Shown piece after piece: positions 8,418 through 61,044 of a stretch of 63,692 nucleotides of DNA (the stretch's first letter is position 1; each line of letters opens with the position of its first letter). This stretch comes from Candidatus Nitrosopelagicus sp. GTDB lineage: Archaea > Thermoproteota > Nitrososphaeria > Nitrososphaerales > Nitrosopumilaceae. The stretch is taken from the NCBI GenBank assembly GCA_028345965.1, contig JAOMEP010000005.1:1-63692 (forward strand), given 5' to 3'. The notes under the pieces were generated by a model. The model had not been told where the DNA came from. It did no database searches and saw only the letters and a program-made list of their open reading frames with translations. Both the position numbers and the translations under genes were made by a program.

Positions 8418-8746
8418 CGAATTGTTGTAAATGCATTTTTTAGTGTAGCTTCTATTTTTGTCAGTTCTTGTTCTGGTGTAATCTCTAAAATTGTAGCTTC
8501 TGCTTTTCGTTCTTTTTGAATTTTAATTATGATTGAAGATTGAGTTGGTTCCATATCGGCAAACCATCTAAAACTCATGGTTTTACAAAAAACTACTCTA
8601 TGCATTCTAACATCTTCTATCACTTTTTCATCAAGTGACATGCAATATGTTCGTAATTTATCAAATAATGGCTTTACAGGTTCAGGAATTTGTCTCTGAA
8701 AATCTGCGTAAGTTCTTCCAGTTCCAACTCCGATAAAATTTTCCAT
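8414..8746 (-). CDS. DUF5655-like small protein
   Basis: A 110-residue soluble protein. The segment VKPLFDKLRTYCMSLDEKV, followed by a basic strand and IIIKIQKERKAEATILEIT, resembles the DUF5655 group, whose members have this helix plus predicted transport/restriction-like beta fold and no settled function. The match is by eye only. The gene is convergent with acyP (four-base overlap) and lies directly downstream of the SRP RNA on the same strand, 29 bases from the RNA's predicted 3' end. Confidence 0.7.
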   Translation of the reverse strand: MENFIGVGTGRTYADFQRQIPEPVKPLFDKLRTYCMSLDEKVIEDVRMHRVVFCKTMSFRWFADMEPTQSSIIIKIQKERKAEATILEITPEQELTKIEATLKNAFTTIR

Positions 8747-8775
8747 ATTTCATCTCCTTTGATTCACAATTTAAT

Positions 8776-9089
8776 GTAGTAGTTCTGCTGGCTCCAGTCT
8801 AGGCTGATAGTCCCATTTCGAGGCATACAAGATCCCCCACGTAGACGAGGAAGCGTGGATGCTCCACCTTAGGATTGCTCCCTCCCGGACCTCATCCCTT
8901 TCGATGGTTCGGTCTTAGGAAAAATCCCTTCGGATTATCCTTGTCCTGCAACCACCCGCCTCGGCGTGAATTCATTTCCGCACACCAAGCGGGAGTTACC
9001 TGCCTAGAGATTTACCCAGCAGTTGCTGATCTCTGCATATAGCCGGTTTCAGAATAGGGCACGGCTGGCACCCTGATCCTCCCTACTAC
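8776..9089 (-). ncRNA. ffs: Signal recognition particle RNA (7S)
   Basis: RNA scaffold of the SRP that targets nascent membrane and secreted proteins. On the minus strand the ends pair perfectly: GTAGTAG (9089-9083) with CTACTAC (8782-8776). This gives a molecule of about 314 bases, the usual archaeal size. The S-domain helix 8 signature is clear: AGGTCCGGGAGGGAGCAAT in the middle of the 3' half, where SRP54 binds. GC content is far above the flanking DNA, as expected for a structured RNA. A TATA element lies at the right distance upstream. Confidence 0.92.
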
Positions 9090-9110
9090 GTTTTAGATAG
9101 AATAGAATGT

Positions 9111-9118
9111 TATATTTG
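9111..9118 (-). promoter_or_regulatory. TATA box of the SRP RNA gene
   Basis: Minus-strand CAAATATA centred about 25 bases before the predicted RNA 5' end at 9089. It sits in the gap directly after the stop codon of the upstream thiolation gene, so the RNA has its own promoter. Confidence 0.6.
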
Positions 9119-9120
9119 AA

Positions 9121-10035
9121 TTAGGATCGTTGTTTCTTCAAGTCTGTAACCATATTACACACGGCACAAATCTTTCCTGTACACTGATTTCCACAATTTG
9201 TACAAACTCGTTTTTCTTTGAAACTTGAATCTTTCATAACTTCTGAAATTTTGATTATCGAGCGATACATATTATTTTTAATTCCACTATGTTGGTCTTC
9301 AAGAGAATTTAGAAATTCACGAATCTCTGTTCTAATACCTTCATTCATGTGAGGACACGGTTCTGTTTGAAATGGTAGTTTATTGGTAAATGCATAAAAT
9401 ACAATTTCAGATTCATAAATTTCTGCAAGCGGTTTTATCTTTCTAATTTGTTTTGAATCACTTCCTGGACTCATCCACCCAATTTTATTTGAATCTCCAG
9501 ATAGTGTGTTTATCAAAAATGTTTGTAATGAATCATCTAAGTTGTGACCTGTAGCAATTACATTTGCTCCTAATTCTTTTGCAGCATGATCTAACGCTCT
9601 TCTTCTAAAAATGCCACAGATTGAACAAGATGTGGTTTTCTCTTCATCTCTTAGTTCTAATGATTCTGATAATGTGACATCATACAGTTCTTTGTATGAA
9701 TAAGTTCTAAATTCTACATCTAATTTTGAGCAGAAATCTTTGACTATTTCCAAAGCCTCATCTCTATAACCTGGAATTCCTTCATCAATTGTTACCGCAA
9801 TTATTCGAAAATTATGAGTTTCTGACATTTTTTTTAATATGCTAAGTAATACTAGAGAATCTTTTCCGCCTGAAACTCCAACAACAACTAGTTCATCATT
9901 TTTTATCATCTTGTACTTGGAGATGGTTTTTGCAGCTTTTCTCAAAATAGAGTTTGAAAAGCATTCGGAACATAGGCTTTCTCCACTATACTTTCTATTG
10001 TATACGGCAGTGTTTTTACACTTTTGACATTGCAT
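9121..10035 (-). CDS. ttuA: tRNA 2-thiolation protein, TtuA/Ncs6 family
   Basis: Adenylating enzyme that installs 2-thiouridine in tRNA. The N-terminal zinc site uses CQKC and CSEC. The PP-loop SGGKDSL sits near residue 55, and the catalytic CSICGIFRRRALDHAA follows in the middle. The C-terminal zinc site has CTNCGNQC and CAVC. This order of Cys pairs around a PP-loop is diagnostic for the TtuA/Ncs6/CTU1 family (304 aa, normal length). Whether it targets wobble U34 or T-loop U54 cannot be decided from sequence alone. Confidence 0.92.
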   Translation of the reverse strand: MQCQKCKNTAVYNRKYSGESLCSECFSNSILRKAAKTISKYKMIKNDELVVVGVSGGKDSLVLLSILKKMSETHNFRIIAVTIDEGIPGYRDEALEIVKDFCSKLDVEFRTYSYKELYDVTLSESLELRDEEKTTSCSICGIFRRRALDHAAKELGANVIATGHNLDDSLQTFLINTLSGDSNKIGWMSPGSDSKQIRKIKPLAEIYESEIVFYAFTNKLPFQTEPCPHMNEGIRTEIREFLNSLEDQHSGIKNNMYRSIIKISEVMKDSSFKEKRVCTNCGNQCTGKICAVCNMVTDLKKQRS

Positions 10036-29973: not shown

Positions 29974-30996
29974 ATGATAAAAGATGAATTAGAATTAAAA
30001 AGACAATTTAAAGATAAAATCATTCTCATTACCGGTGGAACAGGTTCTATAGGACACGGAATTATAAAACAGCTAATCAATTTTAAACCAAAACAAATCA
30101 GAGTTTTTACTAATGACGAAAATTCCCTTGTAGAACTTAAAGAATATTTAGATAATAATAATATTTTTCAATTTATGGTTGGCGATGTTAGAGATAGAGA
30201 TAGATTAAATCTAGCTATTAGAAACGTAGACATAGTTTTTCATGCAGCTGCTATGAAACATATTGATATTTGTGAGGAAAATCCTTTTGATGCAGTAAAA
30301 ACAAATGTTGTTGGAACGAGTAATATTTTAGAAGCATCCATAATTGAAGATGTTGAAAAGTTTATTTTTATTAGTACTGATAAAGCAACTAATCCCTCTA
30401 CAACTTTAGGAGGAAGTAAATTATTAGCTGAGAGGTTAACTCTTGATGCAAGTACATATGTTGGTAAAGGTAAAACTAAATTTGCTATTGTTAGATTTGG
30501 TAATGTTTTAGGTTCACGAGGTTCAGTTTTTCAAATATTCCAAAAACAAATACAAAACCAGAAACCTCTTACAGTGACTGACGCAAGAATGACACGTTTC
30601 ATCATGTCTATCTCTGAAGCATCAAAAATGATCTTAAATGTTACACATCTTGCAAAAGATGGAGAAATATTCATATTAAAAATGCCATCAATTCGAATTG
30701 AAGATCTTGCAAAAGGTATGTTAGAAGTTTACAAAAAGAAATTTCCTAATAATAAAATTGTAAAACAAATTAAAATTTTAAAATCTCGAGAAAGGGAAAG
30801 ATTTCATGAATTACTTATCACACAAGATGAAATTCCGTATTGTCATGATGTTGGAAATATGTATAAAATATCAAACAAAGAAACTAAAAAATTAATATCC
30901 ATGAAAGAATTTAGTTCTCAAACATCAAAAAGAATTAGTAAAGAAAAACTGCATAAAACTATTAATGAATTGATTGACGATTATTTATCAAATTAA
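29974..30996 (+). CDS. UDP-GlcNAc 4,6-dehydratase-like protein (FlaA1/PseB/CapD family)
   Basis: Dehydrates a UDP-N-acetylhexosamine to its 4-keto-6-deoxy form, the first step to aminodideoxy sugars. TGGTGSIGHGIIKQL is the NAD loop, AAMKHIDICEENPFDAVKTN is the family hallmark and STDKATNP provides the catalytic Asp-Lys. The position of the usual catalytic Tyr in NPxxxYGxTK is Leu here (NPSTTLGGSK), as in divergent members where that residue is also not Tyr. Adjacent with a one-base overlap to the aminotransferase that would take its product. 340 residues. Confidence 0.92.
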   Translation: MIKDELELKRQFKDKIILITGGTGSIGHGIIKQLINFKPKQIRVFTNDENSLVELKEYLDNNNIFQFMVGDVRDRDRLNLAIRNVDIVFHAAAMKHIDICEENPFDAVKTNVVGTSNILEASIIEDVEKFIFISTDKATNPSTTLGGSKLLAERLTLDASTYVGKGKTKFAIVRFGNVLGSRGSVFQIFQKQIQNQKPLTVTDARMTRFIMSISEASKMILNVTHLAKDGEIFILKMPSIRIEDLAKGMLEVYKKKFPNNKIVKQIKILKSRERERFHELLITQDEIPYCHDVGNMYKISNKETKKLISMKEFSSQTSKRISKEKLHKTINELIDDYLSN

Positions 30997-32147
30997 TGAA
31001 AAAATTGTCAAAAAATAAATGGAAAATACCTCTGTATAAAGTCAATAATGATGTACGTGAAATAGAATCTATTTCTAAAGTGATTAAAAGGGGAATGGAC
31101 TGGGCTATTGGATCAGAGATTGAACAATTTGAGCAAAATCTTGCAAAATATATTGGAACAAAATATTGTGTAGCGTTTAATTCAGGAACGTCTGCTGGTC
31201 ATGCAGCATTATTATCATATAACTTAGGAAAAAATGATGAAATTATTGTACCATCTTTTAGTTTTATAGCAACAGCTAATTGGCCATTAATGGTAAATTC
31301 AATACCAAAATTTGTTGATATTGAAAATACAACTTTTGGTATGGACCCAAATAAAATAGAGGAATCAATAACAAAAAAGACTAAAGCAATAATTCCTGTT
31401 CATTACGCTGGATTGCCATGTAAAATCAATGAAATAAAAAAAATCGCAAAAAAACATAATTTACTTCTAATAGAGGATGCAGCTGAATCTATTGGTGCTC
31501 ATATAAATAAAAAAAAGGTTGGAACTTTTGGCGATATGGGGATTTTTAGTTTTGCAGGGAATAAAATTTTAACATCTGGTGAGGGTGGGGCTGTAGTTAC
31601 AAATTCAAAAAAACAATATGAAAAATTAAAATTAATTCGATCACATGGAAGAAAAACAACGGGTAATTATTTTTCTAATGTAAATGCACCCACGTATCTT
31701 GAATTAGGATTTAATTGGAGAATGTCATCAATTACTGCAGCATTAGCATTATCTCAACTAAATAAAATAGAAAAATTAATTCAATCTAGACGTAAACATG
31801 TTTCTCAGTATCATAAAAATTTAAAAAAATTAAATGGGATAAAATTTCATTCAGAACCTAAAGATTTCATGCATGTATATCAATTATTCAATATACAATT
31901 ACCTTCTAAAAAAATTAGAAATAATCTTATGGAATTTTTAGCAAAAAAAGGTATAATGTCTAAAGTATTTTTTGAACCTATTCATTCAAGTTATCATTTT
32001 AAAAAATATAGGTTAAAACATAAAAATTTGATAGTTACCAAACAAGTCTCAGATACAATTTTATCATTGCCTATGTATCCTGATCTTACAAAAAATGAAA
32101 TCAATAAGATTACTGATTCTATAATTCAATTCATGAAAAAAGTATGA
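30996..32147 (+). CDS. DegT/DnrJ/EryC1/StrS aminotransferase (PseC-like)
   Basis: PLP enzyme expected to transaminate the 4-keto sugar made by the preceding dehydratase. CVAFNSGTSAGHAALLSY binds the cofactor phosphate, IEDAAESIGAHINKKKVG holds the Asp, and FSFAGNKILTSGEGG holds the catalytic Lys. Length 383 residues, typical. Start ATG overlaps the TAA of the upstream gene, so translation is coupled. Convergent with the fibrillarin-like gene. Confidence 0.94.
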   Translation: MKKLSKNKWKIPLYKVNNDVREIESISKVIKRGMDWAIGSEIEQFEQNLAKYIGTKYCVAFNSGTSAGHAALLSYNLGKNDEIIVPSFSFIATANWPLMVNSIPKFVDIENTTFGMDPNKIEESITKKTKAIIPVHYAGLPCKINEIKKIAKKHNLLLIEDAAESIGAHINKKKVGTFGDMGIFSFAGNKILTSGEGGAVVTNSKKQYEKLKLIRSHGRKTTGNYFSNVNAPTYLELGFNWRMSSITAALALSQLNKIEKLIQSRRKHVSQYHKNLKKLNGIKFHSEPKDFMHVYQLFNIQLPSKKIRNNLMEFLAKKGIMSKVFFEPIHSSYHFKKYRLKHKNLIVTKQVSDTILSLPMYPDLTKNEINKITDSIIQFMKKV

Positions 32148-32159
32148 TGAATCTTTAAA

Positions 32160-32753
32160 TTACTTAAATTCTGAAATAATTTTTTTATTTGAAAATATAA
32201 TTAATGATTTATTACGAAAATAATTTTCAATATTTATTTCCTGTATGACATGAAGTGATTTAGATAATTCTTTAAATGAATTCCTAAATTCTTTTTCCAA
32301 TAATCTAGATAAAACTATTATCAAATATCCAAATTCATCTAAAAATTCATCTAAAATATTAGTGATATTTTTTATAGAAATTATATCATTATTTACATAA
32401 ATCACAGAAAATAATTTTCCTTTAATTTCTTCTAAATTATCAATACACTGAAAATTCTCAATTTCTGAACTCATATTTTTACATTCTTTATTGAAAATGA
32501 AATTTTTTTGTTTATTTTCAACCAGATCCAAATAATTAAACTGTTCTTTTTTGTCTATTTTTCCAATGTACAAAATATTTGTTAATTTATTTATTGGAAT
32601 TATCTCTAAACCTGACATAATTGCTGCAGATAATGCATCTTCAAATGGTTCCCATCGTCTTAACATATCTTCGTTTGAAGATTTTTCTTTATAATCAAAT
32701 TTTTTTGTTGCGGGAATTTTCTTTCCATCTCCAACCCAATTTATTATTACCAT
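32160..32753 (-). CDS. Fibrillarin-like protein with degraded SAM-binding site
   Basis: A 197-residue protein that aligns by eye to archaeal fibrillarin over its whole length. Residues 32-63 (RRWEPFEDALSAAIMSGL, then NILYIGK) match the fibrillarin segment (R)xW(N/D)P..SKLAAAI..GL...KILYLGA. The C-terminal strand-helix pattern with NIENYFRNKSLIIFSNKK matches LEPYxxDHxMVVGxxxK. The glycine-rich SAM loop that follows ILYLGA in true fibrillarin is replaced by a charged KIDKKE stretch, and the acidic VYxDVAQP motif is not evident. It is therefore probably not an active methyltransferase. Its ATG overlaps the end of the sulfotransferase gene by seven bases. Confidence 0.7.
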   Translation of the reverse strand: MVIINWVGDGKKIPATKKFDYKEKSSNEDMLRRWEPFEDALSAAIMSGLEIIPINKLTNILYIGKIDKKEQFNYLDLVENKQKNFIFNKECKNMSSEIENFQCIDNLEEIKGKLFSVIYVNNDIISIKNITNILDEFLDEFGYLIIVLSRLLEKEFRNSFKELSKSLHVIQEINIENYFRNKSLIIFSNKKIISEFK

Positions 32754-33673
32754 TGAAATTCCTTCTTAATCATTCTAAATAATTTTTCATTATGAGGTTT
32801 GTAAAAATCTATTAAAAATTCTCTAATTTTTTCTTTCATAGGTTCATGTAGAACTTTCTCAACTCCTACATTCTTTCTTTTCACTTTTGTTAATTCTATA
32901 TTTTTAATACCAAAAAAAGTGAATAATGAATTCATTATTTCATCATAGTTATCATCTAATTCTTCTGTTGAATAATGTCTAAATTGATTTTCTTCAAATT
33001 CATCAAACCAATTTTCAAGATTATCAGCATAGAGTCCATGACGTAGATATGAAAATTGTAAATAGTTTACTGAATTCTCATTATTTATTTTCATATCTGA
33101 ATTATCTTTAAGTAAATTCATTCTTTCGATTTCAGCTTCTATCGCATTTTCAAAGCTGGAATGTTCCCATCCATACCTGACAGCATGATTATAAGCAGAA
33201 TATGCTCTGTTAACAGGATTTCTAAAAAAATTAATTAATTTTACATTTGGTAATACTTTCTTTATCCGAGTTGGTGCTGATGGATTGGTCAAATATGTCC
33301 CTGGAGCTTCTCCTACAATTTTGAATTTTGAAATTTTTGTAGGAAAATGTGATCTATACCATGATATAGAATTTATTTCAAAACTCCCATCAAAATAATG
33401 AACTCCTGCATGATCTTTGAAACCTGCACTTATTTCATGATGCTGATTAAGATATGATAAAACACTATATTTTCCAGCTTTGCTGGTACCGATAATTAGA
33501 AAATGTGGTAAAAATCTAATTGAATTTGTTAAGTATCTAAATGTAGAATCCCATGAAAATCGATATGGATTAATTTGTTTATTCTGTAGTAGAAATTTTC
33601 TAGCTGATCCTTTTATTCCCATATGTTTTTCATATTTTTCTAATATTTGAAATTCACTACGACAAAAACTCAC
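32747..33673 (-). CDS. Sulfotransferase family protein
   Basis: Expected to move sulfate from PAPS onto a glycan. The 5' phosphosulfate loop FLIIGTSKAGKYSVLSYLN is at residues 58-76, with Lys where most members have Thr/Ser before the final Ser. The 3' phosphate motif FFRNPVNRAYSAYNH is near residue 148. The 308-residue length and GWEHSSFENAIEAE-type segment resemble heparan-sulfate-type sulfotransferases. The GTG start at 33673 overlaps the upstream stop codon. Middle gene of a three-gene operon. Confidence 0.88.
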   Translation of the reverse strand: MSFCRSEFQILEKYEKHMGIKGSARKFLLQNKQINPYRFSWDSTFRYLTNSIRFLPHFLIIGTSKAGKYSVLSYLNQHHEISAGFKDHAGVHYFDGSFEINSISWYRSHFPTKISKFKIVGEAPGTYLTNPSAPTRIKKVLPNVKLINFFRNPVNRAYSAYNHAVRYGWEHSSFENAIEAEIERMNLLKDNSDMKINNENSVNYLQFSYLRHGLYADNLENWFDEFEENQFRHYSTEELDDNYDEIMNSLFTFFGIKNIELTKVKRKNVGVEKVLHEPMKEKIREFLIDFYKPHNEKLFRMIKKEFQW

Positions 33674-34245
33674 TTTTCATATTGTGTAACTCTCTTTTCA
33701 TCATCACTAAACATTACGCCTACAGTTCTCAATAACAAAACATTATTTTCTTCACAAAATTTGCCTAATTTTTCAATATATTTTTCAAATTCGCTTTTGT
33801 CAATATTTTGTCTAATTATTGATGAAAATAGATCATCATGATCTAACATCATAATTTTTTCATTTTCTCTTAAGGATTCAAAAATTTCTTCTATATTATC
33901 AACTGCATTTGGACTTTCAATCTTTGGAACAATGATTATGTCTTTTGGTAATTTTTCAAGAAACGGTTCCAAGTCTTTCTTTTTTTCAACATTTGATACT
34001 GCAAAATATTTAATCTCAGAATGTGATTCTAATATTGGTATCATTTCGTCTAGAGAATATTTGTTATTTGGTGGTTTTATTCTACCTTGAGGTAAATCTA
34101 AAAAGAATTTAGAATTTTTATCATCAGATAATTTTTTTTCTAATTCATTAAGACTGTTACACCAAGCTAAATTAATTCTTAAAATTGCATCATCTGGTAA
34201 TTTGAAATTATAATGATTTTTTATATTTTGGGAAATCAGGAACAT
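33670..34245 (-). CDS. Miniature pyruvate-kinase-like TIM-barrel protein
   Basis: 191 residues that read like the core barrel of pyruvate kinase without its B and C domains. ILRINLAWCNSLNELEKKL resembles the first barrel strand with its substrate Arg. KFFLDLPQGRIKPP resembles the LDLxGPxIR strand. IIIVPKIESPNAVDNIEEIF resembles IIAKIENxEGVxNIDEI with the catalytic Lys and metal Glu. MMLDHDDLF resembles the metal Asp of GDLG. It may bind PEP or pyruvate, or belong to the related HpcH/citrate lyase group. First gene of the operon with the sulfotransferase and fibrillarin-like genes. Confidence 0.6.
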   Translation of the reverse strand: MFLISQNIKNHYNFKLPDDAILRINLAWCNSLNELEKKLSDDKNSKFFLDLPQGRIKPPNNKYSLDEMIPILESHSEIKYFAVSNVEKKKDLEPFLEKLPKDIIIVPKIESPNAVDNIEEIFESLRENEKIMMLDHDDLFSSIIRQNIDKSEFEKYIEKLGKFCEENNVLLLRTVGVMFSDDEKRVTQYEK

Positions 34246-34292: not shown

Positions 34293-35225
34293 CTAATTAC
34301 TTATTTTTTTTATAAGGGCAATTATATCTCCTTTTGAAACAATTTTAGGATTATTATCTAGATGTTTTTTATCTGTTAAAATTACTTCTGCAGCATCCTC
34401 AATATTCATTTTTAATTTAATTTTTGAAAAATCTAATTTTTCCACTAATTTTTTAAATCGTGAACTAAACTTTGAATCATTAAAATCATGTGCAACGGCA
34501 GTAGTGTATGATAATGCATGTCCATGGGAATACCCTTCATTTGAAAATACATACGAAAGAGCATGTCCTAATGTAGTTGAACAATTCCCAAATCCTAATC
34601 CTGAAATCAATGAACCTAAAACTATTTTTTCCTTATCCATATTCATAATTCCATTTTCTAATAATTGAAATGCATGTTCACACATAAATTTTGTATACTG
34701 ATTCCCATTTTTACTATCAAACCCCTCAGAACATTGTGCAACTGCGTCAATTGCAGAATTTTTTATTATATCGATGGGTGAATCTTCAATAAAATGCGAA
34801 TCTACAATTGCAACGTCCGCAAAAAATTCATCATCATGAAAACTTTTTTTTAAACCATTCACTTTCAAGACTGAAATTCTTGTGACTTCGCTTCCACTTC
34901 CAAATGTAGTTGGAATTAGAATCTTCTTTTTTTGCATTTTTGATGCAACATATTTTGCAACATCTAAGCTACTTCCTCCACCAAGTCCAATTACAGTATC
35001 AATTTCAGAATTAGAAAATTCTGATTGAATGGTATCTATTGTCTCGATAGAGGGATTAGGTATCACATCATCAAAAATATAAGAATTATTTATTCCAAGA
35101 TAGTCAAACCAGCCTCTTTTTTCAGAACCATTAGATGTGATTACTAGTGATTTTTTTGAATATGTGTATTCATTTGCACTATTACAACCAAAAATAATTT
35201 TGTTTGGCTGCTTTATTGTAAACAT
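34293..35225 (-). CDS. Iron-containing alcohol dehydrogenase, probable phosphonoacetaldehyde reductase
   Basis: Group III (Fe-dependent) dehydrogenase of 310 residues. The NAD site is IGLGGGSSLDVAKY near residue 80, TTFGSGSEVT follows, and metal histidines lie in GYSHGHALSY with Asp in DAVAQCSEGF. Divergent by 47 bases from PEP mutase and next to the decarboxylase genes. In phosphonate clusters this family reduces phosphonoacetaldehyde to 2-hydroxyethylphosphonate, and that role is inferred here from context. Confidence 0.85.
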   Translation of the reverse strand: MFTIKQPNKIIFGCNSANEYTYSKKSLVITSNGSEKRGWFDYLGINNSYIFDDVIPNPSIETIDTIQSEFSNSEIDTVIGLGGGSSLDVAKYVASKMQKKKILIPTTFGSGSEVTRISVLKVNGLKKSFHDDEFFADVAIVDSHFIEDSPIDIIKNSAIDAVAQCSEGFDSKNGNQYTKFMCEHAFQLLENGIMNMDKEKIVLGSLISGLGFGNCSTTLGHALSYVFSNEGYSHGHALSYTTAVAHDFNDSKFSSRFKKLVEKLDFSKIKLKMNIEDAAEVILTDKKHLDNNPKIVSKGDIIALIKKISN

Positions 35226-35232
35226 AACGGAA

Positions 35233-35266
35233 TCTAATTTTATAGAATGTTTTTAATACTTAAAAT
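35233..35266. promoter_or_regulatory. Divergent promoter of the phosphonate genes
   Basis: Only 47 bases separate the start codons of the reductase (35225) and PEP mutase (35273). Forward-strand TTTTATAG (35238-35245) is about 28-30 bases before the pepM ATG. Reverse-strand TATTAAAAAC (35258-35249) is about 25-30 bases before the reductase ATG. The two cores nearly overlap, so the promoters are likely to interfere with or be controlled by one bound factor. Confidence 0.45.
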
Positions 35267-35272
35267 TATTTG

Positions 35273-36181
35273 ATGAAATGTCTGTTGTCTAAAAATCATA
35301 GTTTACGTGAAAAATTAGAAAAGAATTCTATAGTAAAAGTTGGAGGCGCTTATGATGCAATGTCAGCTAAATTAGTAGAAACATCTGGCTTTGATGCAGT
35401 TTGGGCCGGAAGTTTTGCAATATCTGCAACACATGCATTACCCGATGCAAGTATTTTGACCATGACAGAATTTTTTGATGTTGCATCAAATATGTCTTCA
35501 ACATGTGAAATACCAATTATTGCAGATTGTGATACAGGTTATGGAGGTCCAAATAATGTCAATCATATGGTAAAAAAATATGAAAATGCAGGAGTATCAT
35601 CAATTTGTATAGAGGATAAAACATTTCCAAAACAAAATAGCCTGCTAGAGAATGGAAAAAATGATTTACTATCAGAAAAAGAATTTGTTGCAAAAATATT
35701 ATCTGCAAAAGAAGCAAGAATTGATAAAGATTTTTTGATCATTGCCAGAGTTGAGGCATTAATTTCAGGTGCAGGAATGAATGAGGCATTGAAGCGAGCT
35801 ACCGCATATGAAAATGCAGGAGCCGATGCTATACTAATTCATTCAAAACAAAAAACTCCGGATGAAATATTTGAATTTACAGAATTATGGAAAGGTTCTG
35901 TTCCAATTGTTGTTGTACCAACAACATATGATAACGTAAAAATTTCAGAATTAGCTTCTCATAAAATTAAAATGGTTATTTATGCAAATCAAACATTACG
36001 TGCTGCACATAATTCAATTACATTATTACTAAAAGAAATGGTTAATTCTGAACGTATTTCCGACATTGATAATAAAATATCTACGATGAAAGATATTTTT
36101 GATTTACAAGAAATGTACAATATGAAAAACAAAGAAAAAGAATTAGAAAATGAATTAAAGAAATTAGGTTATATTAATTGA
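35273..36181 (+). CDS. pepM: Phosphoenolpyruvate mutase
   Basis: Forms the C-P bond by rearranging PEP to phosphonopyruvate, the entry step of nearly all phosphonate synthesis. The diagnostic motif EDKx5NS is present as EDKTFPKQNS near residue 117. DCDTGYGG supplies metal-binding Asp residues, and KVGGAYDAMSAKL is the N-terminal strand of the isocitrate lyase fold. The ATG at 35273 is preferred to a TTG three bases earlier. The gene starts a tight four-gene operon. Confidence 0.96.
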   Translation: MKCLLSKNHSLREKLEKNSIVKVGGAYDAMSAKLVETSGFDAVWAGSFAISATHALPDASILTMTEFFDVASNMSSTCEIPIIADCDTGYGGPNNVNHMVKKYENAGVSSICIEDKTFPKQNSLLENGKNDLLSEKEFVAKILSAKEARIDKDFLIIARVEALISGAGMNEALKRATAYENAGADAILIHSKQKTPDEIFEFTELWKGSVPIVVVPTTYDNVKISELASHKIKMVIYANQTLRAAHNSITLLLKEMVNSERISDIDNKISTMKDIFDLQEMYNMKNKEKELENELKKLGYIN

Positions 36182-36666
36182 AAAAATCGTATCAGGAACA
36201 AATGTTTGATTATTTACATGAAAATGGTATTAAAAATTTTGTCGGTGTTCCCGATTCAACATTAAAAAAATTTATCAAATGTGGATTAGAAAATAATAAA
36301 ATCATCATAACGACTAGAGAAGAAGAAGCAATTGGAATTGCTACGGGAATGCTTTTAGCAAAAAGTCCATCATTAGTCTTCATGCAAAATGCAGGTTTTG
36401 CAAATTCATTAAGTACAATTACTTCATTAGTACAATTATACAAAATTCCTCTAATTTTTTTAATTGGTTGGCGAGGTTTTTTAAAAAATGATGCGCCAGA
36501 ACATACCAAAATAGGACGAATTCAACCTGATTTATTAAAAATTATGGAAATTGATCATAAAATTGTTCAAGATAGTAATTGGAAAAAAATGTGTGATTGG
36601 GCATTAAAAAAATTTCAAAATAATAAATCATGTGCATTGATAATACCGAGGGAATTTCTTGATTAG
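36178..36666 (+). CDS. Phosphonopyruvate decarboxylase, alpha (PYR) subunit
   Basis: 162-residue thiamine-diphosphate enzyme half. It contains the PYR domain with GVPDSTLKKF and TREEEAIGIATGM, where Glu activates the cofactor, and APEHTKIG. Together with the next gene it equals one full decarboxylase, as in split sulfopyruvate decarboxylases. The partnership with PEP mutase makes phosphonopyruvate the likely substrate; decarboxylation pulls the unfavourable mutase reaction forward. A TTG at 36178 overlaps the pepM stop; the first ATG is eight codons in. Confidence 0.9.
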   Translation: MKKSYQEQMFDYLHENGIKNFVGVPDSTLKKFIKCGLENNKIIITTREEEAIGIATGMLLAKSPSLVFMQNAGFANSLSTITSLVQLYKIPLIFLIGWRGFLKNDAPEHTKIGRIQPDLLKIMEIDHKIVQDSNWKKMCDWALKKFQNNKSCALIIPREFLD

Positions 36667-37210
36667 AAACGAAGCTATGCAGATTTTTCTTGAAAAAATC
36701 AAGAAGGATCCAATTGTATCTGCTAATGGTTTCATTAGCAGAGATCTTTTCAATATTCATGATAAAAAAACAAATTTTTATATGATTGGCTCAATGGGAT
36801 TAGCTTCATCAATTGGTTTAGGTATAGCATTAACAATACCTAGGAAAAAAATTTTTGTTTTTGATGGGGATGGTAACATTTTGATGAATCTTGGTTCTTT
36901 AACTACCATCGGTAAATTACAACCAAAAAATTTGATTCATGTAATTTTTGATAATTCAATACATGAATCAACTGGAGGTCAACCAACAAGTTCAAGTATA
37001 ATTTCAATTGCAAAAATTGCAAAGTCATGTAAATACAAAAAAATTTTTACTGCATCTGGCAAAAAAGGAATATTAAAAATTCTTAATACAATTAAAAATA
37101 ATCAAGGTCCAATAATGATTATTGTAAAAATTAAAGGTGGAGGAAATAGTGGTAAGAGGATTTCAATATCACCCGAAAAAATTAAAGACTATTTTATTGA
37201 AGAATTATAA
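36659..37210 (+). CDS. Phosphonopyruvate decarboxylase, beta (PP) subunit
   Basis: 183-residue thiamine-diphosphate binding half. The Mg/TPP motif GDG-x(~27)-N is seen as FDGDGNILMNLGSLTTIG ending in VIFDN, followed by STGGQPTSS. It overlaps the alpha gene by eight bases, pointing to coupled translation and equal dosage. The TTG at 36659 or the ATG at 36677 may be the start. Confidence 0.9.
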   Translation: MIRNEAMQIFLEKIKKDPIVSANGFISRDLFNIHDKKTNFYMIGSMGLASSIGLGIALTIPRKKIFVFDGDGNILMNLGSLTTIGKLQPKNLIHVIFDNSIHESTGGQPTSSSIISIAKIAKSCKYKKIFTASGKKGILKILNTIKNNQGPIMIIVKIKGGGNSGKRISISPEKIKDYFIEEL

Positions 37211-37213
37211 AAC

Positions 37214-37966
37214 ATGAAAATAATTTTTATTGCCGCAGGTTCTTCAACAAGATTAGGAGAAAACACATACAATATTCCAAAAGGTTTGTTAAAAATTAAT
37301 GATAAATCAATTATTGGTAATCAAATTGAATTATTTAAAAAAAAGAATATTGATAATATTGTAATAATTACTGGTCCAAATTCTGACAAGTTTACATTTA
37401 AAAATGTAATATACATTAATGATAAAGATCATAAAAATCATGATGTATTAGGTTCACTAATGGCGGGGGAATCTCAAATGGATGACCAATTAATCACAAC
37501 ATATTCCGATATAATTTTTGATGAAGCAATCTTAGATTCAATAATTAAATTTTCAGGAGAATTTGGAATTGTAGTAGATTTAAACTGGGAAAAAAATTAT
37601 GAGAATAGGAACCAACATCCAAAGAGTGAGGCAGATAATGTTTTAATTAATAATGGAAAAATATTAAAAATTAAAAAAAATATTACGCAGTGCAAAGATA
37701 ATGAAGTTATAGGCGAATTTATAGGAATAATGAAGATATCTGAAAAGGAAATAAAAAATTTTAAAAATGTATTTTCTGAATTAAAAAAATCACATAATGG
37801 AAGATTTCATAATGCGTCATCATTAGAAAAGGCTTACTTAACAGATATGTTACAAGAATTAATTGATTTAGGAGTGAACATATCTCCAATTATCGTAGAC
37901 GGAAAATGGTGTGAAATAGATACACCACAAGATCTTGAAAGAGCTCGAGAAATACTAAATGATTAG
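37214..37966 (+). CDS. Phosphonate/phosphocholine-type CTP nucleotidyltransferase (PntC/LicC-like)
   Basis: GT-A-fold nucleotidyltransferase of 250 residues. The signature IFIAAGSSTRLGENTYNIPK opens the chain, and TTYSDIIFDE carries metal-binding Asp. The segment DLNWEKNYENRNQHPKSEAD is typical of the LicC/PntC group that activates phosphocholine or phosphonates with CTP. The C-terminal KWCEIDTPQDLERA is standard. Last gene of the pepM operon, so it probably makes a CMP-phosphonate donor such as CMP-2-hydroxyethylphosphonate. A sugar-1-phosphate substrate is the alternative. Confidence 0.83.
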   Translation: MKIIFIAAGSSTRLGENTYNIPKGLLKINDKSIIGNQIELFKKKNIDNIVIITGPNSDKFTFKNVIYINDKDHKNHDVLGSLMAGESQMDDQLITTYSDIIFDEAILDSIIKFSGEFGIVVDLNWEKNYENRNQHPKSEADNVLINNGKILKIKKNITQCKDNEVIGEFIGIMKISEKEIKNFKNVFSELKKSHNGRFHNASSLEKAYLTDMLQELIDLGVNISPIIVDGKWCEIDTPQDLERAREILND

Positions 37967-39078
37967 TCTATAAAATGTAACAGTTCATCTGAAAGTTTTT
38001 TTTCAACTTCATTATTTTTACCAATTAAATTATTTTCTTCTTTAGGGTCATTTTCAAGATCATACAATTCTTTAGAATTGTTATGTTCGTTAAGGATTAA
38101 TTTCCATTTTGAATCACGAATAGATTTTGTATTCGGGGTTTTAGGAGGGGCATTTTCATTTAGAGGATTTCCAGTTTCAGAAAATGCAAGTTTTTCAATT
38201 TGTTTTTCACCTTTTATTAGAGGCATTAATGATTCACCATCCAATTTTTCAAAGGAATTATTAATTTGAATGTCTAACATTTCTAGAATTGTTGGCATAA
38301 AATCAATATGTCTTACTTGTGATGAAATTACTTTTGATTTCATATCTGAATTATGAAGGTAAGCAAATGTTTTCAAAGTATAATCATAACAAAATGCACC
38401 ATATGCACGTTCTCCATATTTTTCGCCTATACTAATTCCATGATCAGATAAAATTAGAATTATTGAATTAGAAAGAAATCCTAAATTCTCAATTTTTTTC
38501 ATAACTGATTCTAGATAATTCTCTGCATTATGAAATAATTTTGAGTATCTTTCATAATTTAATTCATGATTATCAAAATATTCATTACTAAAATTATTAA
38601 AAACTTTTAGAACTTCATTACTTATACCAGTATGAATTTTACTGTAATGTAAATATAAGAAAAAATTTTCACCGTTGTCATATCTACTTTTCATCTTATC
38701 TAATAATTCTAAATGCCATTCAACTAAGTTAATTTTTTGTTCATCATGAACATTAAATTCTCTAAAACCAAATTTTGGAATTATTAATTCAGTATGCCCA
38801 TCTGCATACGTATAATAATTTTTTTCAGCTAAATAATCTGCTAATGTCAAAAAATTGTTATTTTTGAATTTATATATATTCCAATAACTGTTTACTCCAG
38901 TTCTATTACCATAACATCCAGAAAGAACTGCATGCATTGCAGCAGTAGTATATGGGGCATACGTAATTGATTGGTTAAACTGTATGATATTAGGTGTTAA
39001 TTTTTTAAAAATGGGAGATTTTTCAGCAAAATCTAATCTACCGCCATCAATTAGAATAATTATCACATTTTTTTTCAT
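37963..39078 (-). CDS. Sulfatase-fold hydrolase/transferase (alkaline phosphatase superfamily)
   Basis: 371-residue soluble enzyme. Metal residues sit in IIILIDGGRLDF near the start and ILILSDHGISIGEKYGERAY in the second half. The nucleophile position in APYTTAAMHAVLSG is Thr, not the Cys/Ser of sulfatases that mature to formylglycine, so a phosphodiester or phosphonate transfer/hydrolysis is more likely than sulfate ester hydrolysis. The C-terminal KELYDLENDPKEENNL is typical of the superfamily. No signal peptide is seen. Convergent with the nucleotidyltransferase. Confidence 0.87.
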   Translation of the reverse strand: MKKNVIIILIDGGRLDFAEKSPIFKKLTPNIIQFNQSITYAPYTTAAMHAVLSGCYGNRTGVNSYWNIYKFKNNNFLTLADYLAEKNYYTYADGHTELIIPKFGFREFNVHDEQKINLVEWHLELLDKMKSRYDNGENFFLYLHYSKIHTGISNEVLKVFNNFSNEYFDNHELNYERYSKLFHNAENYLESVMKKIENLGFLSNSIILILSDHGISIGEKYGERAYGAFCYDYTLKTFAYLHNSDMKSKVISSQVRHIDFMPTILEMLDIQINNSFEKLDGESLMPLIKGEKQIEKLAFSETGNPLNENAPPKTPNTKSIRDSKWKLILNEHNNSKELYDLENDPKEENNLIGKNNEVEKKLSDELLHFID

Positions 39079-39165: not shown

Positions 39166-39939
39166 ATGAAGGATTTAACTTCTGAAGAAATTGAAGAATT
39201 TAATAAAAATGGATTTTTAGTGAAAGAAAAATTTTTTGATGAAGATGAAATTTTAGAAATTAGAAAGTGGATTTATGAATATAGTGAGAAAAAACCAGAA
39301 GATTGGAAAGAAGGACAAGAAATGGGATATTATGAAACTAGCAAAAATAGTGGAGATAGAATTTTAACACGATTAGAGAATTTTGTAGACTACAATGAAA
39401 ATTTTCATAATTTAGTATATTCTAAAAAAATTATGAACTGTGTGGAAATCTTATTGGGTGAAAAATGTGTATTCTTTAAAGAGAAAATTAACTTTAAGAA
39501 TCCAGGAGGAGCAGGTTTTAAACCACACCAGGATATAATTTCAAGATGGGACGACTATGCTCCTGATTTCATGAATGTCCTAATTGCTACAGATAAAGGA
39601 ACAATTGAAAATGGGTGTTTGGAAGTTGCAGCAGGTTTTCATAACAAAGGATTTCTAGGTCCTTACGATGCGCCAATTCCGGAAGAACGGTTGAAGGAAA
39701 TGACTTTTGAACCATTGAAACATTTCTTAGGCGACGTTGTATTTTTTAATGGTTTTACTCCGCACCAATCAAAAGAAAATAAATCAAATAGTCCACGAAC
39801 AAATCTTTATCTTACTTACAATAAGCTTTCTGATGGAGATCATAGAGAGAAATATTTTGAAAGAAAACGGAAAGAATTACCTCCAGATAATGAACGAGGA
39901 GAAAACTTCAAAGATAGTCCATTGCATGAATACAAATAA
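39166..39939 (+). CDS. PhyH-family 2-oxoglutarate/Fe(II) dioxygenase
   Basis: 257-residue phytanoyl-CoA dioxygenase-type protein. The facial triad is HQD in GFKPHQDIISRWDD near residue 119 and the distal His in FNGFTPHQSKENKSN, with the 2-oxoglutarate Arg in SPRTNLYLTYN. Close relatives hydroxylate small molecules, including 2-aminoethylphosphonate (PhnY*). Given PEP mutase 3 kb away, hydroxylation of a phosphonate headgroup is a reasonable inference, though a sugar or lipid is possible. Confidence 0.87.
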   Translation: MKDLTSEEIEEFNKNGFLVKEKFFDEDEILEIRKWIYEYSEKKPEDWKEGQEMGYYETSKNSGDRILTRLENFVDYNENFHNLVYSKKIMNCVEILLGEKCVFFKEKINFKNPGGAGFKPHQDIISRWDDYAPDFMNVLIATDKGTIENGCLEVAAGFHNKGFLGPYDAPIPEERLKEMTFEPLKHFLGDVVFFNGFTPHQSKENKSNSPRTNLYLTYNKLSDGDHREKYFERKRKELPPDNERGENFKDSPLHEYK

Positions 39940-39946
39940 TTTTGAT

Positions 39947-41293
39947 TCAAATATAGCCTAATTTTTTTAGTTCGTTTGAAATTTTTAGATCATCATCTGT
40001 GGTTTTATCCTCAGTATCACTAAAATCTGATTCAGGAAAACCTGAGAGTGTCATTTCAAAATTTTTAACAATATCTGGAAATTTGTAATTTATGTTATCA
40101 TTTTCAAAAGTATCGTTGATTAAATCAAAAAGATGAACATTTTGAGTTGGAATTCGTGCATGTCTAAAATATTTATATTTTGAGGTTCGAATTCCAACGC
40201 AATCATTTTCAGAAATTTTTTGATGTGGCATTGTGTGTATGTAAATTGGATTTTCAGGAAAAATTCTTCCATTTATCAAAGGCAACAAACTGACACCGTC
40301 AAATTTTGTATTTGACTCCAATTCTAAAATATTTAATATAGTTGGAAAAATATCCACTGCTCCTACCTGTTGAGTAATGATTTTTTTATTAATTTTTGGA
40401 CCATTTATTAACAAAGGTATTTTGATATTCTCATCAAATAAAGAGAGCGTAAAATGTGGTAAACGAGAACGTTTTTCATAATGTGTTAAATTTCTATTTG
40501 CATTTGCTATTCTTACTGCAGCAATACTTTTTCTTAATTTAGATAAAGATTTTCCTCCAATATTTTGAGCAGATTTGGGCAATAGTTTTTTCCCAATTTC
40601 TTTTCCAGTTGTCAAAGGAGGTTCAAATGATACACAATCTTTTTCATCTATAGGTATTTTTTCACCATGATCTGCAGTAATAATTACAATAGTATTTGTA
40701 AGATCAATTTTTTCTAAAATTTTTCCTATCCAATAATCTATGGAAGAGACAATCTTTTCATATTTTGTTGAACCAAATTTTTCAGTATCAAAATTTTCTA
40801 AACCTGTAGGCATAGATCCTTCTCTAATTGCATGAAGATCAAATATATGTAAAAAATAAAACCATGGTTCGCTAAGATTTTTGGAATTTAGAAGTTTTAA
40901 TATTTGAGAACCCGTCTTTTCTAAAGGAATTGTAGGTGGTCCAGGATCATATGTTGGATCCTCATTTTCACATAATTTGATTAAAGATTGAAATGAAGTT
41001 AGATTCGGTAAAAAACCGTAGAAATGATAATTATTTTGAATTAATGTTGAAACTAAATTCTCTTTTTTTAATTTAATTCTTAATTCTCTTGTTCCGATAG
41101 AATTGGGAAATAATCCGTTAATTATGGTATTTAATGATACAATAGTTCCATCTGCAGAACTAATTGCTTGTGAAAAATATGTTCCATTTTTCACCAGAGA
41201 ATCAATATTTGGAGTAATAGATGTTTTTTCAGCATTTTGAAATTGATCACTTCGAAGTGAATCAATTACCAATAACAGGATATTTGGTTTCAT
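39947..41293 (-). CDS. Sulfatase-fold hydrolase/transferase
   Basis: 448-residue member of the alkaline phosphatase superfamily. LLVIDSLRSDQF near residue 6 and IIITADHGEKIP near 210 hold metal ligands, and SSADGTIVSLNTIINGLFP places Thr at the nucleophile position. A C-terminal YKYFRHARIP and HLFDLINDT follow the sulfatase pattern. No signal peptide or membrane segment. Convergent with the dioxygenase. Its Thr nucleophile parallels the enzyme at 37963. Confidence 0.87.
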   Translation of the reverse strand: MKPNILLLVIDSLRSDQFQNAEKTSITPNIDSLVKNGTYFSQAISSADGTIVSLNTIINGLFPNSIGTRELRIKLKKENLVSTLIQNNYHFYGFLPNLTSFQSLIKLCENEDPTYDPGPPTIPLEKTGSQILKLLNSKNLSEPWFYFLHIFDLHAIREGSMPTGLENFDTEKFGSTKYEKIVSSIDYWIGKILEKIDLTNTIVIITADHGEKIPIDEKDCVSFEPPLTTGKEIGKKLLPKSAQNIGGKSLSKLRKSIAAVRIANANRNLTHYEKRSRLPHFTLSLFDENIKIPLLINGPKINKKIITQQVGAVDIFPTILNILELESNTKFDGVSLLPLINGRIFPENPIYIHTMPHQKISENDCVGIRTSKYKYFRHARIPTQNVHLFDLINDTFENDNINYKFPDIVKNFEMTLSGFPESDFSDTEDKTTDDDLKISNELKKLGYI

Positions 41294-60417: not shown

Positions 60418-61044
60418 ATGACATGTAAAGGAATCTGTTCTAGATACAAAGCACAAAAACCAGTGGGAACTGGACGTTATGCATCTGGTCAAAGACGATG
60501 TCAAATCTGTGAAATCTTCATTAATTGGGAAGGACTTTGGTGCCCATGTTGCGGTTACCGATTAAGAACTAAACCACGTAATTTGAAGTACAAGGCTAAA
60601 CTTCGAGCACGAGTTGAAGCTGACGCAGCATCTGCCAAATCTCAAACTATTGAGGTAGCACAAGTGGCTACAGTTTCAGCATCATCATCTGATTTTGTTA
60701 AAACAACATTAGAAACTGCTGTCTCTGAAGGATGGACAAAGACAAAGACCGTTGAAGAACTCAGAAAATCTGAAGAACGCATGACCATCAAAAAGGCAAG
60801 AGAATTAACCAAAGAAGCATTTGATACAAAGAATGCACCAGTTGAAACTCCTGTTAAAGTTGCAGCATCATCATCTGATTTTGTTAAAACAACATTAGAA
60901 ACTGCTGTCTCTGAAGGATGGACAAAGACAAAGACCGTTGAAGAACTCAGAAAATCTGAAGAACACATAACCATCAAAAAGGCAAGAGATCTAGTCAAAG
61001 AAGCATTTGAAGCAAAGTCTGAACCGATAGCAATAAAGGCATAA
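60418..61044 (+). CDS. Zinc-ribbon protein with a duplicated C-terminal helical module
   Basis: 208 residues. The N-terminal part starts MTCKGICSRYKAQKPVGTGR and continues with CQIC and CPCCGYRLRT: three Cys pairs that should bind zinc. This head is a family I recognise from thaumarchaea, where several copies per genome occur; function unknown, nucleic-acid binding likely. Residues about 88-149 and 150-208 are tandem copies of a helical unit containing SSSDFVKTTLETAVSEGWTK, almost identical. A strong TATA box suggests high expression. Confidence 0.85.
   Translation: MTCKGICSRYKAQKPVGTGRYASGQRRCQICEIFINWEGLWCPCCGYRLRTKPRNLKYKAKLRARVEADAASAKSQTIEVAQVATVSASSSDFVKTTLETAVSEGWTKTKTVEELRKSEERMTIKKARELTKEAFDTKNAPVETPVKVAASSSDFVKTTLETAVSEGWTKTKTVEELRKSEEHITIKKARDLVKEAFEAKSEPIAIKA
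60679..60964. repeat. 100-bp perfect direct repeat inside the zinc-ribbon gene
   Basis: Bases 60679-60778 and 60865-60964 are identical at every position and begin gcatcatcatctgatt. The period is 186 bases (62 codons), so the copies stay in frame. Divergence starts only after the shared block and is itself modest. Synonymous positions have not drifted, which points to a very recent duplication or continuing gene conversion. Confidence 0.95.

Follow-up and report, generated by a model that had tools for sequence, protein, structure and literature searches.

A degenerate fibrillarin paralogue beside a sulfotransferase-like gene in Nitrosopelagicus suggests a non-methylating role

Introduction

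Fibrillarin is encoded by a single gene in nearly all archaea, with three euryarchaeal exceptions (PMC7608942), and the known fibrillarin duplicates keep their methyltransferase core (PMC12155479). Among eukaryotes, the duplicates FBLL1 (mammals) and fbl-1/fbl-2 (planarians) have diverged in expression, with the methyltransferase domain conserved (PMC12155479, PMC7608942). The gene analyzed here, for which we coin the name fibL, is likewise a second fibrillarin copy, but it lacks the catalytic core. It lies at 32160..32753 on the minus strand of a 63,692-nucleotide stretch of DNA (the window; contig JAOMEP010000005.1, assembly GCA_028345965.1) from Candidatus Nitrosopelagicus sp., a member of the marine ammonia-oxidizing archaea, which are very abundant in the ocean. 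A literature search of limited reach found no published description of a gene of this type. We conclude that the fibL of the window is a fibrillarin by descent and fold and very probably no longer a fibrillarin in function. An extra, degenerate fibrillarin beside a sulfotransferase-like gene suggests a new, non-methylating job.

Results

Family membership and fold

The fibL open reading frame begins with ATG and encodes a 197-aa product that matches the Pfam Fibrillarin model (PF01269) over residues 17-67 at 32.5 bits (cut-off 27, E 6e-8); its orthologues in two further genomes score 45.3 bits (single-cell genome AC-665-F20, here G010) and 121.1 bits (G002). The best PDB sequence matches of the window protein are archaeal fibrillarins, with residues 29-186 aligning to P. 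horikoshii fibrillarin 1g8a by phmmer (2e-5), and a two-sequence profile of the window and G010 proteins matches PDB fibrillarin over almost the full protein length (1e-9). With the NCBIfam equivalog for fibrillarin-like methyltransferases, the window protein reaches 31.4 bits, short of the at least 113 needed.

An AlphaFold2 model of the window protein, made with 33 relatives in the alignment, has a pLDDT of 84.8 and a pTM of 0.84, and Foldseek against the PDB places fibrillarin chains at ranks 1-37, ahead of any other methyltransferase (1fbn, E 3.5e-11). The alignment behind this model contained flpA rows, which could have carried the fold over. A model built from two orthologues only, without flpA rows, is of low confidence (pLDDT 40.7), too low for detail, and still returns fibrillarins in places 1-4 (best E 1.4e-3, probability 0.99). 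These searches, together with the presence of both genes in G010 described below, bear out the first-pass annotation of this reading frame as a fibrillarin paralogue. Compared with archaeal fibrillarin flpA (PF01269; PDB 1fbn, 1g8a, 1pry and 3pla), fibL has the same fold and N-terminal domain and retains the WxPxxxxLxAAIxxGL block and the order of secondary-structure elements. The position-by-position correspondence to fibrillarin claimed earlier holds closely for residues 32-63, but the C-terminal block follows flpA only in outline and with few identities, the YDKDHAM of flpA reading YFRNKSL.

Paralogy and distribution

G010 encodes a fibL orthologue on contig C6 (44% identical to that of the window) and a full-length true flpA (287 bits) on contig C5, about 0.15 kb after nop5. 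Because this genome holds both genes, fibL is a paralogue and not the housekeeping copy, and unlike flpA it is not found with nop5. The genome of the window (G000) is 72% complete and contains no fibrillarin other than fibL; the G000 and G002 assemblies lack nop5 too, and the simplest explanation is that their nop5-flpA operon falls in a portion that was not assembled. A second Pfam fibrillarin match in G000 (C41:12105-12455) proved to be an ordinary 280-aa SAM methyltransferase and not flpA.

G002 carries the third and less eroded fibL copy. All three copies fall within one genus, which we take to be Nitrosopelagicus, and all three genomes are drafts. Profile searches found no further fibL in 250 genomes of the family, nor in 400 genomes sampled across the order or 398 across the phylum; in the order sample, the matches below the top two were ordinary flpA. 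When genome contigs were searched with the window protein alone there was no match, and a two-row alignment recovered G010 only. Viral contigs and phage records yielded no fibL. One origin for all three copies has support of 93/89 in one tree and a p-AU of 0.26 with fewer rows, and the branches are very long; one duplication behind them is thus neither shown nor rejected by these sequences.

Loss of cofactor and catalytic sites

In an alignment of the three paralogues with 31 flpA, the SAM loop of flpA (GxSTGTT) corresponds to GKIDKKE in the window (residues 64-70, positions 32544..32564, minus strand), GTLDDDI in G010 and NPLEEST in G002, in agreement with the earlier observation that the loop after ILYIG is replaced by KIDKKE. 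The glycine and threonine residues of the loop are gone in the window and G010 copies and mostly gone in that of G002. The K-D-K-H catalytic set, whose columns we chose from what we take to be the family's catalytic residues, reads A40/N121/S149/K182 in the window, T/D/K/K in G010 and K/D/K/Y in G002. The acidic residue that follows strand 2 is missing from the window protein as well, as are the DAR and DxAQ motifs. Both the window and the G010 copies have also lost the helix that lies on the cofactor side between strand 2 and strand 3. Over 84 columns that are near-invariant in the 31 flpA, the flpA themselves keep 77-84, G002 fibL 38, G010 fibL 24 and window fibL 19. The damage is therefore wider than the eroded SAM site first described, extending from the glycine loop to the catalytic set, the helix and 65 of the 84 near-invariant columns. 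The three copies form a graded series of loss, with G002 as the least eroded intermediate, and the missing residues point to a loss of SAM binding.

Selection on fibL

In the three genomes, the open frames of fibL span 197 (window), 205 and 240 codons at about 21% G+C. A chance open frame is excluded because a run of 197 codons has a probability of about 1e-10 at the base composition of the window and because orthologues exist. Across 192 codons compared between the window and G010, 47 differences fall at position 2 and 80 at position 3 (p 5e-4), whereas base composition without constraint predicts that position 2 differs at least as often as position 3. For this pair of fibL genes, pN/pS is 0.68 over the whole length and drops to about 0.34 in residues 31-65 (69% identical), compared with 0.28 for the sulfotransferase-like gene of the same two genomes and 0.22-0.27 for flpA. 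By these codon comparisons, fibL is kept under weak but real selection and is not in neutral decay.

Pairing with a sulfotransferase-like gene

The immediate neighbor of fibL is a sulfotransferase-like gene of the 3-OST/NDST type (32747..33673, minus strand; Pfam Sulfotransfer_1, 41.7 bits), which was compared with a PDB profile and with its relatives in a set of 26 homologues. The start of fibL and the end of this gene overlap by 7 nt in the window; the two genes are separated by 3 nt in G010 and by 7 nt in G002. The sulfotransferase-like gene comes first in the window and G010, and fibL comes first in G002. The first-pass annotation had suggested a search for the same gene near sulfotransferases in related genomes, and the pairing indeed recurs in these two further genomes of the genus. 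The partner proteins of the window and G010 are 68% identical. In a tree of the 26 sulfotransferase-like proteins, the three fibL-linked members and that of a fourth genome, G018, form one clade (support 95/96). Beside the other 22 genes, which include a few at the edge of a contig, no fibL was found. In G018, the contig ends 99 bases beyond the sulfotransferase-like gene. A short open frame there, starting MNQFVPKILWENNHGKKKLYSF, looks fibrillarin-like by eye, but 16 of 345 ordinary N-termini score equally and its HMM score is negative, and it was not counted.

On its other side, the sulfotransferase-like gene of the window overlaps by 4 nt a gene for a 191-aa protein (33670..34245, minus strand) that weakly resembles the barrels of HpcH/HpaI aldolase and pyruvate kinase, giving a run of three overlapping genes. 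This uncharacterized barrel-like family is a recurrent neighbor of sulfotransferases in islands of the genus and its relatives (loci L105, L106, L107, L108, L113 and L115).

Altered active site of the partner

The sulfotransferase-like protein of the window matches heparan 3-OST-3 by PDB profile (4e-42), and its sequence places it and the other partner proteins with the heparan 3-O- and N-sulfotransferases. It has the PSB lysine (K65) and the 3'-phosphate motif (RNPVNRAYS) of that family; the PAPS-loop Lys/Arg and the motif RNPxx[RK]AYS are kept in all four clade members. In 3-OST-3, the catalytic base is Glu184, and the E184Q variant keeps less than 1% activity (PMC8341778). The corresponding residue, before the [HY][FY]F motif, is glycine in the window (G90) and G010, alanine in G002 and aspartate in G018; a small loop insertion nearby leaves the register at this site uncertain, and no reading yields glutamate. 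Glutamate is thus present in 0 of 4 members of the clade, compared with 19 of the 22 other homologues (Fisher p 0.002). In the PAPS loop, the GTTS (residues 67-70 in the window) reads GKYS in the window and GKHS in G010, both threonines being replaced. We report here that the fibL-linked sulfotransferases depart, as judged from their residues, from the canonical active site.

The four clade members without this glutamate are encoded at window 32747-33673, L063:9541-10422, L099:4759-5748 and L100:2661-3557. Asparagine or histidine stands in its place in three other sulfotransferase-like proteins of the genus (L107:3566-4414, L108:5362-6183 and L106:4533-5396), and the loss is therefore not confined to the fibL-linked clade.

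Genomic island

Convergent with fibL in the window are genes for a PseB/PseC-like dehydratase and aminotransferase of amino-sugar synthesis (29974..32147, plus strand; TIGR03589 and TIGR03588, each scoring under its curated cut-off), and relatives of these lie within the same 10 kb as fibL in G010. Beyond the run of three overlapping genes follows a phosphonate block (34293..37966) that consists of an Fe-alcohol dehydrogenase (minus strand) and, on the plus strand, PEP mutase, phosphonopyruvate decarboxylase in two ORFs and a nucleotidyltransferase. The island also encodes WbqC, glycosyltransferases, two sulfatase-family proteins and a methylphosphonate-hydroxylase-like dioxygenase. A similar phosphonate and sulfatase gene set is found in G002, with PEP mutase 15 kb from fibL, while the fibL contig of G010 carries amino-sugar genes and PEP mutase is on another contig.

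Marine phosphonates have been proposed to be built into glycan chains of surface proteins (PMC8931226). PEP mutase is present in all four genomes with a clade member, but only the window and G002 have it on the contig that carries the gene pair. What the pair accompanies is thus the glycan island and not phosphonate itself, and a specific tie to phosphonate was rejected. Of the glycan/phosphonate island described at first, the surface-glycan context stands, while phosphonate is a frequent companion and not the rule.

Discussion

Proposed role and alternatives

We propose, with a probability of about 0.5, that fibL is a fibrillarin-fold pseudo-methyltransferase that, without catalyzing a reaction itself, partners the sulfotransferase-like protein encoded next to it when surface glycans are decorated. 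On this proposal, a fibrillarin gene was duplicated and the copy would have lost S-adenosylmethionine binding and catalysis and have been retained as a structural (pseudoenzyme) protein. It would be co-produced with the neighboring sulfotransferase-like protein and would most likely bind that protein, stabilizing it or shaping its recognition of a glycan or lipid-linked substrate, and the two would act together in cell-surface glycan decoration. We infer both the physical complex and its action on surface glycans. The reading of fibL as a pseudo-enzyme, already put forward in the first-pass annotation, gains support from the lost cofactor and catalytic positions, and its new job may be the binding of a partner. 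Several observations weigh against the partner model: the pair comes from three draft genomes only, gene order in the window and G010 differs from that in G002, the overall constraint on fibL is weak beside that on the sulfotransferase-like gene, and the three copies may or may not share one origin. If the model is true, the locus would show clearly how a core RNA enzyme can become, by stepwise loss, a partner protein in cell-surface chemistry, with the intermediate visible in G002.

The state of the sulfotransferase-like protein raises the question of whether both proteins are pseudoenzymes that form a binding module (e.g., for a nucleotide-sugar, glycan or lipid carrier) devoid of transfer chemistry. 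The loss of the catalytic glutamate throughout the clade, the replaced PAPS-loop threonines of the window and G010 (K-Y and K-H) and the near-inactivity of E184Q in 3-OST-3 speak for it. We consider it unlikely, however, as the RNPxx[RK]AYS motif and loop Lys/Arg are retained in all four proteins, the three unlinked homologues noted above also lack the glutamate, a nearby His or Asp could act as base, and the sulfotransferase-like gene is well constrained. By comparison with these two inactive partners, an active enzyme that has switched cofactor or substrate, such as the methyltransferase recast for a sugar that was suggested earlier, is a good deal less probable: G002 fibL retains the K, D and K of the catalytic set and a more complete fold, but the SAM-loop residues and cofactor-side helix are missing to the extent described, and the loss of all cofactor and catalytic positions in the window copy disfavors it. 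Nor do we put much weight on fibL still binding RNA or Nop5, in which case it would be a catalytically dead competitor of box C/D RNPs or an accessory to them. The fibrillarin N-terminal domain and the WxPxxxxLxAAIxxGL block are kept, as this would require, yet fibL lies in a glycan island away from nop5 and is linked to one sulfotransferase clade, and a search of G010 found no second Nop5. Long branches and weak overall constraint would suit a decaying pseudogene or island debris; this is very improbable given open frames of such length at low G+C, the constraint at codon position 2 and the same partner in three genomes.

In a bolder form of the partner model, the two genes would make up a conserved module whose products, a pseudo-methyltransferase derived from fibrillarin and a sulfotransferase with altered catalysis, co-evolved into one heteromeric machine for archaeal surface glycans; a normally single-copy archaeal RNA methylase would then have been recruited to a non-RNA job. 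We offer this as a tentative possibility.

Other features of the window

The phosphonopyruvate decarboxylase of the window (36178-37210) is encoded by two overlapping ORFs, one for each TPP domain (N- and C-terminal), an arrangement shared with sulfopyruvate decarboxylase, and the same split occurs in G002 (L099:18430-19465). The best NCBIfam match of the phytanoyl-CoA-dioxygenase family protein at 39166-39939 is methylphosphonate hydroxylase, at 152 bits versus a cut-off of 500. The two proteins of the sulfatase/alkaline-phosphatase superfamily are encoded at 37963-39078 and 39947-41293, with G002 counterparts at L099:6001-7440 and 8462-9586. Further along the window, a small protein (60418-61044) contains an internal repeat, in which the segment SSSDFVKTTLETAVSEGWTKTKTVEELRKSEE is present twice.
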